Source: Immundisolibacter cernigliae
GTDB lineage: Bacteria > Pseudomonadota > Gammaproteobacteria > Immundisolibacterales > Immundisolibacteraceae
Reading direction: 5' to 3'
NCBI RefSeq assembly: GCF_001697225.1
Contig: NZ_CP014671.1
Coordinates: forward strand, 2,232,001-2,296,000
Length of the DNA stretch: 64,000 nt
This document shows, one piece after another, positions 59,181 to 64,000 of this stretch. Below the pieces are notes generated by a model. The model was not told the DNA's origin. It saw only the letters and a list, made by a program, of their open reading frames with translations, and did not search any database. The number at the start of each line of letters is the position of its first letter. Position 1 is the first letter of the stretch. A program made the translations under genes and the position numbers.

Positions 59181-59816
59181 TCACGCGGCGGCTGGGCCGA
59201 CCGTGGCCGGGCGGCGCAGGATGGCCAGCATCGCCACACCGACCGCCAGATCGAGCGCTGCCCGCCCGCCGGCTTCGAGCAGCCGCATGGCCTGCACCGG
59301 GATCGAGCTTGCGATGAGGTCCGGCGCCGTGCCGGCCAGCATCAGGTCGGTGAGTGACCCGCGCAACGTCAGCGAGAGGTCGAGTACGGCCAGCGGGACG
59401 ATCGCCATGAGCAGCGCCGCGCCTGCCCGCAAGCGCGTGGTCGCTGCCGGAAACGGCCAGGCCGCCCACAGCGTCAGCAGGATCACCGGGTGCTGCCAGG
59501 CATAGCCCTGCAGAGTCTGCGTCTGCACCCACACGCCCGGCGGCACCGGGAAACCGCGGTAGACGAAGCCGCGCGCGGTCGAGAACTGCGCTGCCAGGAC
59601 CGCCTGTTCGTCACGCTTCGCGAGCGTGACCTGCACCGTATCCCACGGCGCCGCGGTGGCGGCGAGCACGCCTTCGAGCAGCGGCGCGAGCGCCGCGCAC
59701 CAGGCCGGCCCCCACCATGGCGCGGTGCCGCCAAGCAGGCCGGCCATCGCCAGGCCGCGCGCGAGGATGCCGAACCGGGCGCGCCTCAGCGGCGCAGGCA
59801 CGCGCCGCTCCACCAC
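59181..59816 (-). CDS. Probable exosortase H-associated membrane protein
   Basis: The 211-residue protein has about five hydrophobic segments (LAMAGLLGGTAPWWG, PVILLTLWAAWPFPA, GAALLMAIVPLAVLDLSL, and LDLAVGVAMLAILRR). Overlaps the exosortase gene by 31 nt, and such companion proteins are regularly encoded beside XrtH. There are no recognisable catalytic residues. Name given by context and general resemblance; its function is unknown. Confidence 0.6.
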   Translation of the reverse strand: MVERRVPAPLRRARFGILARGLAMAGLLGGTAPWWGPAWCAALAPLLEGVLAATAAPWDTVQVTLAKRDEQAVLAAQFSTARGFVYRGFPVPPGVWVQTQTLQGYAWQHPVILLTLWAAWPFPAATTRLRAGAALLMAIVPLAVLDLSLTLRGSLTDLMLAGTAPDLIASSIPVQAMRLLEAGGRAALDLAVGVAMLAILRRPATVGPAAA

Positions 59817-60298
59817 AGAAAATACAGCCCCGCCGCGGCGGTGACGGCCAGCGGCCCGAGCAGGCCGTGTCCCAGCGCAAACGCCGCCGCCATCTCAAGG
59901 CGCGCCCACACCAGCGCGACGATGCGCGCCTGGTTGGCGACATAGACCAGCGACAGACCGAGGCCGGCGCCCCACAGCTTGTCCCGCCAGCCGGCCGGCG
60001 CCACCGCGATGGCCGCCAGCAGCAGCAGCATGGCGTCCACCCCCTCGCAGCCGTTGAGCACCGAGATGCGCCGCCCGCCGGCAATGAGCACGTGCCGGTC
60101 AGCATGTACCGGCACCGCAAGGACCGCATCGGCGAGCCAGGCCGCCGGGCGCACCGTCAGCAGATCGATGACCAACGGCTTGAGCCAGGGCTCCTTGAAC
60201 GCGAGGTAGGCCAGATCGAGCGCCGCGAACAGCGCCAGGAAGGCGAGCGCCCGCCCCGCCAGATGCATGCCCGGCCTGGCACTCAAGGAAGCAGACAT
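59786..60298 (-). CDS. xrtH: Exosortase (XrtH-like, IPTL-CTERM sorting)
   Basis: The 170-residue multispanning transpeptidase has the exosortase triad: Cys in SVLNGCEGVDAMLLLLAAI, Arg in VANQARIVALVWARL, and His in LGHGLLGPLAV. The short size and the neighbouring IPTL-CTERM protein indicate the XrtH branch. It should cut IPTL-CTERM proteins at the inner membrane and pass them to a further acceptor. ATG 60298 is used; ATG 60268 is possible. Divergent from the RHS protein gene, its likely substrate. Confidence 0.82.
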   Translation of the reverse strand: MSASLSARPGMHLAGRALAFLALFAALDLAYLAFKEPWLKPLVIDLLTVRPAAWLADAVLAVPVHADRHVLIAGGRRISVLNGCEGVDAMLLLLAAIAVAPAGWRDKLWGAGLGLSLVYVANQARIVALVWARLEMAAAFALGHGLLGPLAVTAAAGLYFLWWSGACLRR

Positions 60299-60390
60299 CG
60301 GGCGTCCCACCGTCGCTGCGAAACAGAACCCGACAGAGGCTAGCAGAACCCGTGGCGGGCGCGCGCGACAAGCGGTAGCGCCTGGCGCGA

Positions 60391-60408
60391 CCGTCACGCG
60401 CCTGTCAT
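60391..60408 (+). promoter_or_regulatory. Pho box upstream of the RHS/IPTL gene
   Basis: CCGTCAC-GCGC-CTGTCAT: two 7-bp direct repeats, the second a perfect consensus, with the canonical 4-nt spacer. A TATTTT -10-like hexamer begins at 60420, 11 nt after the box, the spacing seen in PhoB-activated promoters. The expected message would start about 60 nt before the ATG at 60491. Confidence 0.62.
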
Positions 60409-60490: not shown

Positions 60491-63400
60491 ATGCGCCGCA
60501 CGCTGCGTCTCGTTCTGGCTTTGGTCTGCCTGAGCGCGTCCGCCCGCGCCGCCTACCAGTGGCCGGACAGCACGCCCCCCGATCAGTGGCGCACCGCCGA
60601 CGAAGCCTGTTCGCTGGGCGAGGCCCTGCCCGAGCTGGCGCGGCTGCGGGCGGTGAACCCTTCGCGCCAGTACACGCTGATATGGGCCTACGCCAACGAA
60701 TATACCGACGGCGAATCGCAGTGCCGGTTCGTCATCGAGGAGCGGCGGCCGTTCCTCACCACCGACCTTTTCTACGACTTCCTGCACATCCGCACCGGCG
60801 CGGCCGATGCCTGCGCGCTGACCGGCTACCTGGACCCCGAAACCGGTCAGTGTGGCGCGCCCAAGGGTGCGTTCGGCCCCAACTGCCCGGCCGGCGCCAA
60901 CGGCACCAACCCCATCCATGGCGCATCGGGCAACAAGTACCAGCGCGAGGTGGACTTCGAGGGCGCCGGCAGCTTCCCGCTGCGCTTCGAGCGTCACTAC
61001 AACAGCCGCGATTTCACCGCCACGGCGCTGGGCACCGGCTGGCGCCACACCTACGCCGGCGTGCTGGTCATCTCCGACAACGCCGGCACGCTCAGCCGCG
61101 TGCGGGCGGTGCGGCCGGACGGACGCGTGCTCACGTACACCTGGAACGGCAGCGCCTGGGCGAGCCAGGCCGACGTGCTCGAACGCCTGGCCCAGGCCGG
61201 CGCCAACTGGACCTTGACGCTCCCTGACGACCGGGTCGAGACCTACGGCCCCGATGGCGTGCTGGCGTCGGTGCGCGACCGCGCCGGCCTGAGCCACACG
61301 CTCACCTACGCGGTCACCCAGGGGGCGAGCCGCCTCACGCGCGTCACGCACAGCTACGGCCAGGTGCTCGACTTCACCTACGACGCGCAGGGTCGTCTGG
61401 CGGGTCTCACCGCGCCGGACGGGCAGGCGCTCGGCTACGCCTACGACGCCGCCGGCAAGCTGGCGAGCGTCACCTACCCTGGCGCGCTCACGCGCAGTTA
61501 CCACTACAACGAAGCCGCCCACACCGGCGGCGCCAACCTGCCGCATGCGCTCACCGGCCTGACCGACGAGCGCGGCATCCGCGTATCGACCTGGACCTAC
61601 GCGCCGGACGGCCGCGCCACCGGCTCGCGCCGGGCCGGCAACGTGGACGCCTACGCGCTCGCCTACCAGCCGGACGGCAGCACACAGATCACCGACCCGC
61701 TGGGCACCGTGCGCGCCTACGGCTTTGTCGTGCAGCAGCAGGTTGCGCGCCTGACCGGGCTGTCGCAGCCGTGCACCAGCGGCTGCGCCGACACCGCGCA
61801 GACCCTGACTCGGGACGCCAACGGCAACGTCACGGCCCGGCGCGATTTCAACGGCAACCTGACCTGTTACGCCTACGACCCGGCGCGCAACCTCGAAACC
61901 CGGCGCGTGGAAGGCCTGTCCGGCGCGGCCTGTCCGGGTACGACGGTGGCCGGCGTCACGCGCACGATCAGCACCGAGTGGCACGCGACCTTCCGCCTGC
62001 CGCTGCGCGTGGCGGAGCCGGGCCGGCGCATCACCTACACCCACGACGCCGAAGGCAACGTCCTGACCCGCACCGAGCAGGCCACCACCGATCCCGACGG
62101 CAGCCAGGGCTTCGCCGCCACGCTGACCGGCGCGCCGCGGGTGTGGACCCACACCTGGAACGCCGACGGCCAGGTGCTGACCGTGGACGGTCCGCGCACC
62201 GACCTGACCGATGTCACCACCTACGCCTACTACACCGACACCACCGCCGAGCACCGGCGCGGGGACCTGATGCGCGTCACCAACGCGCTGGGCCAGGTGA
62301 CCAACCTGACCCGCTACGACGGGGCGGGGCGGCTGCGCGAGGCGGTGGACCCCAACGGCGTCACCACCGCCTACGCCTACGACGCGCGCGGCCGGCTGGG
62401 GTCCGTCAGCACCGCCGGGGCCACCACCGCGCTCACCTACGACGCCGCCGGGCACCTGAGCCGTGTCACCCTGGCGGACGGCAGCTTCGTTAACTACACC
62501 TACGACGGCGCCGGACGGCTGACCGAGGTCGCCGACGCGGTCGGTAACCGCATCGTCCATACGCTGGACGCCGCCGGCAATCGCCTGAGCGAGACCTGGC
62601 GCAACCCGGACACCAGCGTGGCGCGCAGCCGCACGCGGGTGTTCGATGCCCTGAGTCGCTTGCAGCAGGCCATCGGCGCCGCCGGCCAGACCACGCAGTA
62701 CGCCTACGACGCGCAGGGCAATCCCACCACCATTACCGACCCCAAGGCGCAGCCCACCGGCCAGGCCTACGACGCCCGCCACCGGCTGACGCAGGTCAGC
62801 GACGCGCTGGCCGGCCTGACCGCGTTCACCTACGACCGCCAGGACCGCGTCACCGGCCTGACCGCCCCCAACGGCGCCGCCACCGCCTACACCTACGACG
62901 GCCTGGGCAACCTGACCCAGGAACAAAGCCCCGACCGGGGCACCACCGGCGCCACCTATGATGCCGCCGGCAACGTCCTGACCCGCACCGACGCCCGCGG
63001 CGTGAGCGTCACGCTCACCTACGACGCCCTGAACCGGCCGCTGAGCGAGACCTGGAGCAGCGGCGAGACGGCCAGCTACACCTACGATGCCGCGCCCGGC
63101 TGTAGCGTCGGTATCGGCCGGCTGTGCCAAGTGGTCGACAGTGCCGGACAGACCACCTACGCCTACGACGCGCACGGACGCCTGACATCCGAGACCCGCA
63201 CCGAGGCCGGCATCACCCACACCACCGGCTACACCTACGACGCCGCCGGACGGCGGCTGTCCACCACCCTGCCCAGCGGCGAGAACCTGACGCTCACGCG
63301 CGATAGCGCCGGCCGGGTCAGCCAGCTCGAAAGCGCCAGCGAGACCCTGGCGCAGGCCATCGCCTACGACGCCGCCGGCGCGCTGACCGCCCAGACTCTC

Positions 63401-64000
63401 GGCAACGGCATCACCGAAACCACCACCTACGACGCCGACGGCCAGCGCAGCGCCCAGGCCCACAGCGGCAGCAGCAGCGGCGGCGGGACCTCCAGCGCCG
63501 CGGACGACGAAATCCCCACCTTGGGCGAGTGGGGCATGATCCTGCTCGGCGGCGTGCTGCTGATCGTTCTGGCGCGGCGCAGCCGTACCCCCGGCCCGGC
63601 CGCCTGGCTGCTGCTCGCGCTGGCGGGCACAGTCCTGCTCCTGACCACCCCCGACGCCCGCGCCGGCGACGCCAGCTACACCTACGATAGCAACGGCAAC
63701 ATCCTGACCCGCAGCGCGCCGGACACCACCACCTACAGCTACGACGCCCTGGACCGCCTCACGCGCGAGCAGGGCCCGGCGGTCACCCAGAGCTTCGGCT
63801 ACGATGGCGCCGGCAACCGCACCCTCGATGGAGCCGGCAGCTACGTGTACGCCCCCGCCAGCAACCGCCAGACCAGCCGCCCGCAGGGGCCGGTCACGCT
63901 CGATGCCGCCGGCCACACCACCGCCCAGGCCGGCTTCACCTACACTTGGGACGGCCCGGGCCGGCTCAAGACCGTCCGCCTGTCCGGCCAGCTGCTGGCC
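60491..64000 (+). CDS. Secreted RHS/YD-repeat protein with internal IPTL-CTERM signal (partial, 3' end missing)
   Basis: Open from the ATG at 60491 (GGAGG upstream) to the end of the window, at least 1,170 residues with no stop. Order: signal peptide (MRRTLRLVLALVCLSASARA), a cysteine-containing N-terminal region, a DUF6531-like RHS entry from about residue 140 (NPIHGASGNKYQREVDFEG), then dozens of YD repeats (TYDAAGRL type) to about residue 980. A Gly/Ser linker follows, then IPTLGEWGMILLGGVLLIV from residue 1008 with basic ARRSR, a second hydrophobic stretch (AAWLLLALAGTVLLLTT) ending in DARA, and renewed YD repeats. A membrane signal in mid-protein is unexpected. The frame was checked at several points and is continuous. 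C-terminal effector not in view. Confidence 0.88.
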   Translation, partial: MRRTLRLVLALVCLSASARAAYQWPDSTPPDQWRTADEACSLGEALPELARLRAVNPSRQYTLIWAYANEYTDGESQCRFVIEERRPFLTTDLFYDFLHIRTGAADACALTGYLDPETGQCGAPKGAFGPNCPAGANGTNPIHGASGNKYQREVDFEGAGSFPLRFERHYNSRDFTATALGTGWRHTYAGVLVISDNAGTLSRVRAVRPDGRVLTYTWNGSAWASQADVLERLAQAGANWTLTLPDDRVETYGPDGVLASVRDRAGLSHTLTYAVTQGASRLTRVTHSYGQVLDFTYDAQGRLAGLTAPDGQALGYAYDAAGKLASVTYPGALTRSYHYNEAAHTGGANLPHALTGLTDERGIRVSTWTYAPDGRATGSRRAGNVDAYALAYQPDGSTQITDPLGTVRAYGFVVQQQVARLTGLSQPCTSGCADTAQTLTRDANGNVTARRDFNGNLTCYAYDPARNLETRRVEGLSGAACPGTTVAGVTRTISTEWHATFRLPLRVAEPGRRITYTHDAEGNVLTRTEQATTDPDGSQGFAATLTGAPRVWTHTWNADGQVLTVDGPRTDLTDVTTYAYYTDTTAEHRRGDLMRVTNALGQVTNLTRYDGAGRLREAVDPNGVTTAYAYDARGRLGSVSTAGATTALTYDAAGHLSRVTLADGSFVNYTYDGAGRLTEVADAVGNRIVHTLDAAGNRLSETWRNPDTSVARSRTRVFDALSRLQQAIGAAGQTTQYAYDAQGNPTTITDPKAQPTGQAYDARHRLTQVSDALAGLTAFTYDRQDRVTGLTAPNGAATAYTYDGLGNLTQEQSPDRGTTGATYDAAGNVLTRTDARGVSVTLTYDALNRPLSETWSSGETASYTYDAAPGCSVGIGRLCQVVDSAGQTTYAYDAHGRLTSETRTEAGITHTTGYTYDAAGRRLSTTLPSGENLTLTRDSAGRVSQLESASETLAQAIAYDAAGALTAQTLGNGITETTTYDADGQRSAQAHSGSSSGGGTSSAADDEIPTLGEWGMILLGGVLLIVLARRSRTPGPAAWLLLALAGTVLLLTTPDARAGDASYTYDSNGNILTRSAPDTTTYSYDALDRLTREQGPAVTQSFGYDGAGNRTLDGAGSYVYAPASNRQTSRPQGPVTLDAAGHTTAQAGFTYTWDGPGRLKTVRLSGQLLA

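Follow-up and report, generated by a model that had tools for sequence, protein, structure and literature searches.

A predicted exosortase sorting hairpin inside the YD shell of an RHS polymorphic toxin of Immundisolibacter cernigliae

The RHS gene and its reading frame

The DNA considered here ("the window") is a 64,000 nucleotide stretch of Immundisolibacter cernigliae contig NZ_CP014671.1 (G000:C1:2232001-2296000), a single complete contig of 3.24 Mb. Its right end carries a long RHS gene with an IPTL sorting signal, of the kind recognized by exosortases, in the middle of its reading frame, followed at once by a second hydrophobic segment; the two appear to form a membrane hairpin inserted into the YD-repeat shell of the protein, and the gene lies beside a divergent exosortase gene whose product may cut there. 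The frame opens at GTG 60413 or ATG 60491 and runs without an internal stop to window-equivalent 64984, beyond the window end (4.57 kb; 1523 amino acids (aa) from the GTG and 1497 aa from the ATG). In order, the protein has a signal peptide, a DUF6531 domain, 21 RHS-repeat stretches, the IPTL signal, an Rhs-associated core and a 149-aa tip. TIGR01643 and TIGR03696 both match above their cut-offs and the tip is variable, since a displaced cassette carries another one, and these are the marks of an RHS polymorphic toxin. The features of the gene are the following.

60491..64000, + strand: RHS protein gene with ATG start, going on to window-equivalent 64984 (L002:2491-6984; extended sequence, domain models)
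60491..60550, + strand: N-terminal Sec signal peptide MRRTLRLVLALVCLSASARA (sequence, hydropathy)
60908..61138, + strand: DUF6531 domain, start of the RHS shell (PF20148, residues 166-242, GTG numbering)
63437..63511, + strand: Ser/Gly-rich linker with an acidic end (..SGSSSGGGTSSAADDE) that precedes the sorting signal (sequence)
63512..63574, + strand: IPTLGEWG motif and first hydrophobic helix (TIGR04174, residues 1034-1059, GTG numbering)
63572..63598, + strand: loop ARRSRTPGP with Arg cluster, predicted cytoplasmic (sequence; a similar R-S-R-x-P-G loop occurs in unrelated hairpins)
63599..63664, + strand: second hydrophobic segment AAWLLLALAGTVLLLTTPDARA, signal-peptide-like, with A-R-A end (sequence, hairpin alignment)
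63665..64000, + strand: C-terminal part of the YD shell, extending to DPSGL at window-equivalent 64531 (TIGR03696, residues 1292-1373)
ending at window-equivalent 64984, + strand: 149-aa C-terminal tip after DPSGL (Pfam search, no match)

The GC content at third codon positions (GC3) is 0.92 in the N-terminal shell, 0.93 in the hairpin, 0.89 in the C-terminal shell and 0.51 in the tip. Because its GC3 equals that of the N-terminal shell, the hairpin has a native composition and has long been resident in the gene; the low GC3 tip is foreign and looks recently swapped. A search of the genome for VipB/TssC, the sheath protein of the type VI secretion system (T6SS), gave no match, and there is no PAAR domain among the Pfam hits; the protein does not qualify as a T6SS Rhs effector, which would take T6SS machinery in the same genome.

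An IPTL signal and a hairpin within the frame

The IPTLGEWG motif starts at window position 63512, residue 1008 of the 1497 counted from the ATG, and about 490 residues remain before the stop, so the signal does not have the extreme C-terminal position expected of IPTL-CTERM proteins. The protein scores 23.3 with the TIGR04174 IPTL_CTERM model (cut-off 20.5) and 20.8 with PF18203 (cut-off 20.8; 26.6 in the genome search), and it is the one IPTL match in the 3.24 Mb genome. The original prediction, which placed such a signal at residue 1008 of a continuing frame, is borne out by these scores and by the extension to the stop codon. It also described a signal-peptide-like segment of 25 residues behind the signal; the segment is indeed hydrophobic and ends in A-R-A, but it comprises 22 residues. 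The A-R-A, which directly precedes GDASYTYDSNGN, recurs as the last residues of the N-terminal signal peptide. The IPTL signal and the second segment together make up a hairpin of about 60 residues that sits between two YD repeats, and the Ser/Gly linker ahead of it appears to resemble the spacer of ordinary anchored proteins.

In a search of 369 genomes of the class for IPTL signals, those matches that were returned as loci, a part of the total, were inspected. Among the matches listed, only the window protein has a strong signal at an internal position. The other clear signals have 27-33 residues from their start to the stop, and most of the weaker internal matches are false positives in FlhA; on these grounds the internal match is unlikely to be due to chance. 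A strict DNA pattern (IPxLxxWG, then YDxxGN) gave three matches over the genome contigs, all unrelated; it required ATC for Ile and the Trp-Gly pair and therefore misses variants. When the 96-aa hairpin region was searched against the phylum, all matches were to YD repeats, nonribosomal peptide synthetases and other unrelated sequences, and a tblastn search of plasmids gave a single YD match outside the hairpin.

The hairpin interrupts a continuous shell

The best homologue, in genome G029, is one 1614-aa frame that is colinear with residues 230-1016 and 1088-1384 of the window protein and has no hairpin. In alignment with the solved RhsP the query jumps from residue 1019 to 1096 while the RhsP chain moves from 879 to 894 (77 residues versus 15). 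The solved Rhs shells, RhsA-type (7q97), RhsP-type (8h8a) and Tse5 (8cp6), resemble the window protein in having a YD shell and an Rhs core before a variable tip, but they lack a hairpin at the equivalent place, and the window gene differs further in its Sec signal peptide and in a genome without a T6SS sheath gene match. The RHS paralogue of the same genome (L213, a 1657-aa frame) likewise has no hydrophobic segment. These comparisons point to an insertion in a once-continuous YD shell and disfavour a gene fusion.

The neighbouring exosortase and its relatives

Two genes to the left of the RHS gene are transcribed away from it.

59786..60397, - strand: divergent exosortase, XrtM/XrtH-like, with Cys117/Arg158/His177 (TIGR04178, conserved residues, own-genome matches)
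59181..59816, - strand: exosortase companion membrane protein of no named family (an equivalent gene lies beside related exosortases)

The exosortase gene lies 93 bp from the RHS gene. Its product carries the superfamily signature (TIGR04178, 42.3; cut-off 23), and the catalytic residues Cys117, Arg158 and His177 are conserved without exception among six relatives. The enzyme had been predicted to be XrtH; an exosortase is indeed adjacent, but XrtM is its best-scoring subfamily and it falls short of both subfamily cut-offs. The genome has a second exosortase-family gene, of EpsH type, at 436 kb. Among relatives in the class, related exosortases in five other genomes adjoin a protein that ends in an IPxL-type signal (G108, G245, G323 and G175, and more loosely G315). 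The exosortase genes of G175 and G315 each have a transglutaminase-RHS gene on their other flank; no IPTL of its own was found in the stretches read of these RHS genes, and the target there is a separate gene. Two transglutaminase-RHS proteins (L084:3-4739 and L088:2-4543) adjoin XrtM-like exosortases, the IPTL-type target being a separate protein of about 450 aa. An exosortase-family gene is present in all seven other genomes with mid-protein hairpins, and among the eleven genomes checked it is absent from G029 alone.

Mid-protein sorting signals in other proteins

Sorting signals in the middle of a protein are already known. HVO_0405 of Haloferax volcanii has a central one that is cut in vivo by archaeosortase ArtA, a member of the exosortase superfamily, and is described as a fusion of two genes (PMC7157517). 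It is an archaeal twin-arginine translocation (Tat) substrate made of independent domains, whereas the window protein is one interrupted shell. MXAN_5598 is a large surface protein with an internal MYXO-CTERM tag whose processing is only proposed and which may be a gene fusion (PMC11980579); the internal tag is alike, but the protease family is different.

Closer in layout is the midcut-by-XrtH family NF033207, whose members have a signal peptide, an internal IPTL-like motif, a helix, an Arg-rich loop, a second helix and an exported domain. The RHS protein has the midcut layout of an internal IPTL motif, a second helix and a further domain, but NF033207 members are mostly small (about 200-250 aa), whereas the window protein matches them only at the hairpin, which is flanked by RHS shell. 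Eight members score above the cut-off in genome G022. An NF033207 match of 83 bits also stands at the start of a larger cadherin-like protein (L217), longer than the usual small members. A literature search on the midcut name, XrtH and exosortases with IPTL-CTERM found nothing relevant.

The hairpin recurs in giant immunoglobulin/cadherin or teneurin-like proteins of six genomes of family f70 (G205, G752, G755, G758, G765 and G768). All six genomes belong to the taxonomic order of G205. In each protein a signal peptide and some 140 aa precede an IPTL-type motif, a helix, an Arg-rich loop and a helix, and a large ectodomain follows, which in G205 includes a teneurin-like YD shell. The hairpin is near residue 160-180, ahead of the ectodomain, whereas that of the window protein is inside the YD shell. 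These six proteins (L187, L188, L189, L190, L191 and L062) come from one bacterial family and score under the NF033207 cut-off. A single alignment of the window hairpin, the f70 giants and NF033207 members has the motif, helix, basic loop and second helix in common. The original prediction knew of no RHS system of this layout; the searches made here found no second example within the YD shell of an RHS protein, although internal sorting signals as such have these precedents. The arrangement is uncommon, and its new element is the position of the predicted hairpin, within the shell of an RHS polymorphic toxin whose gene adjoins that of its own exosortase.

Proposed processing and alternatives

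We favor, somewhat above even confidence, the reading that the Sec system exports this RHS polymorphic toxin, that the hairpin in its YD shell is an internal sorting signal for an exosortase, and that the neighboring exosortase cuts it at IPTL. The signal peptide would export the N-terminal shell, transfer would stop at the IPTL signal and helix 1, with the Arg cluster on the cytoplasmic side, and helix 2 would cross the membrane again, so that the remaining shell and the tip, the putative toxic part, would be exported too. Both RHS flanks are most likely periplasmic, because a signal peptide precedes them and a basic loop lies between the helices (the positive-inside rule). Cutting at IPTL by the divergent exosortase would then yield a chain of about 106 kDa from the N-terminal shell, released or attached at its new C-terminus, while the downstream shell and tip would stay held by helix 2; less certainly, signal peptidase might free them at ARA, which is a guess. 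Paired, both chains would make up a single shell. The two-part design of the original prediction, with its predicted cleavage, is supported in part: it fits the predicted topology, the neighboring exosortase and the internal-signal precedents.

Several points weigh against this reading. The cut is deduced from sequence, and it would divide what is one folded shell, possibly with harmful effect. A-x-A ends are common in Ala-rich proteins. The NF033207 midcut model gives the hairpin 23.9 against a cut-off of 45 (positions 33-82 of 175), and the adjacent exosortase reaches 50.5 of the 125 needed for XrtM (TIGR04300) and 40.2 of the 86 needed for XrtH (TIGR04177). Two genomes of the same genus without the window RHS gene still have an exosortase-family gene, so an exosortase can be present where the hairpin is not. 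An AlphaFold model of residues 640-1380 from four sequences (mean predicted local distance difference test score 57.5) has beta strands to about residue 1019 and left the hairpin unresolved, and it was not used as evidence for topology.

More tentatively, and with doubt prevailing, the exosortase, perhaps with signal peptidase, may turn a single exported RHS shell into a pair of chains, and the resulting RHS toxin would be Sec-dependent, sorted to the surface and independent of T6SS. If so, exosortase sorting would extend from surface anchoring to toxin-shell assembly, and signal-peptide RHS proteins in bacteria without T6SS would gain a plausible surface route. With one enzyme gene beside one target, internal exosortase cutting is directly testable here.

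The best surviving alternative, though an unlikely one, is a static anchor, in which the RHS shell is never cut and stays whole, fixed to the inner membrane by both helices, and the IPTL motif serves for insertion only or is left over from an earlier cut site. Two helices joined by a positive loop would suffice for this, and the cleavage it dispenses with is a predicted one; on the other hand, a full IPTLGEWG beside an exosortase gene, in the sole IPTL target of the genome, is hard to explain without cutting. Quite improbable is that the insertion inactivated the RHS gene, which is now decaying: truncated displaced cassettes do lie downstream, but the 4.57 kb open frame, the native codon bias across the insert and the foreign tip suggest a working gene. 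A fusion of two once-separate genes, an RHS gene ending in IPTL-CTERM and a following one with its own signal peptide, could call on HVO_0405 and MXAN_5598, but it is very improbable and is rejected, because the colinear G029 homologue has both flanks in order in an uninterrupted frame, simply without the insert; the RhsP alignment agrees, and no homologues with the two parts as separate adjacent genes were found. Scarcely credible, and likewise rejected, is a sequencing or assembly error hiding a stop or frameshift after ARRSR, since the contig is single and complete, frame and GC3 hold on both sides, the same module occurs in other genomes, and the stretch from ARRSR to helix 2 contains neither an intergenic spacer nor an in-frame start codon; the hidden stop that was to undo the original prediction was looked for there and none was found.

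Downstream cassettes

A 145-aa frame with several hydrophobic stretches overlaps the end of the RHS gene (L002:6956-7390, window-equivalent 64956-65390); it has no Pfam match and is a possible immunity protein. Beyond it lies a displaced RHS core cassette (L002:7413-8657, window-equivalent 65413-66657) with 93% DNA identity to the main gene, a TseH-like tip (PF25218, 47.3 bits) and no signal peptide of its own, and then a second one (L002:8964-9470, window-equivalent 66964-67470) with 90% DNA identity, which is cut short ahead of the core motif. The stretches homologous to the cassettes start about 10 and 28 residues downstream of the hairpin, which therefore lies outside the repeated cassette unit. 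RHS polymorphic-toxin loci usually contain such displaced cassettes.
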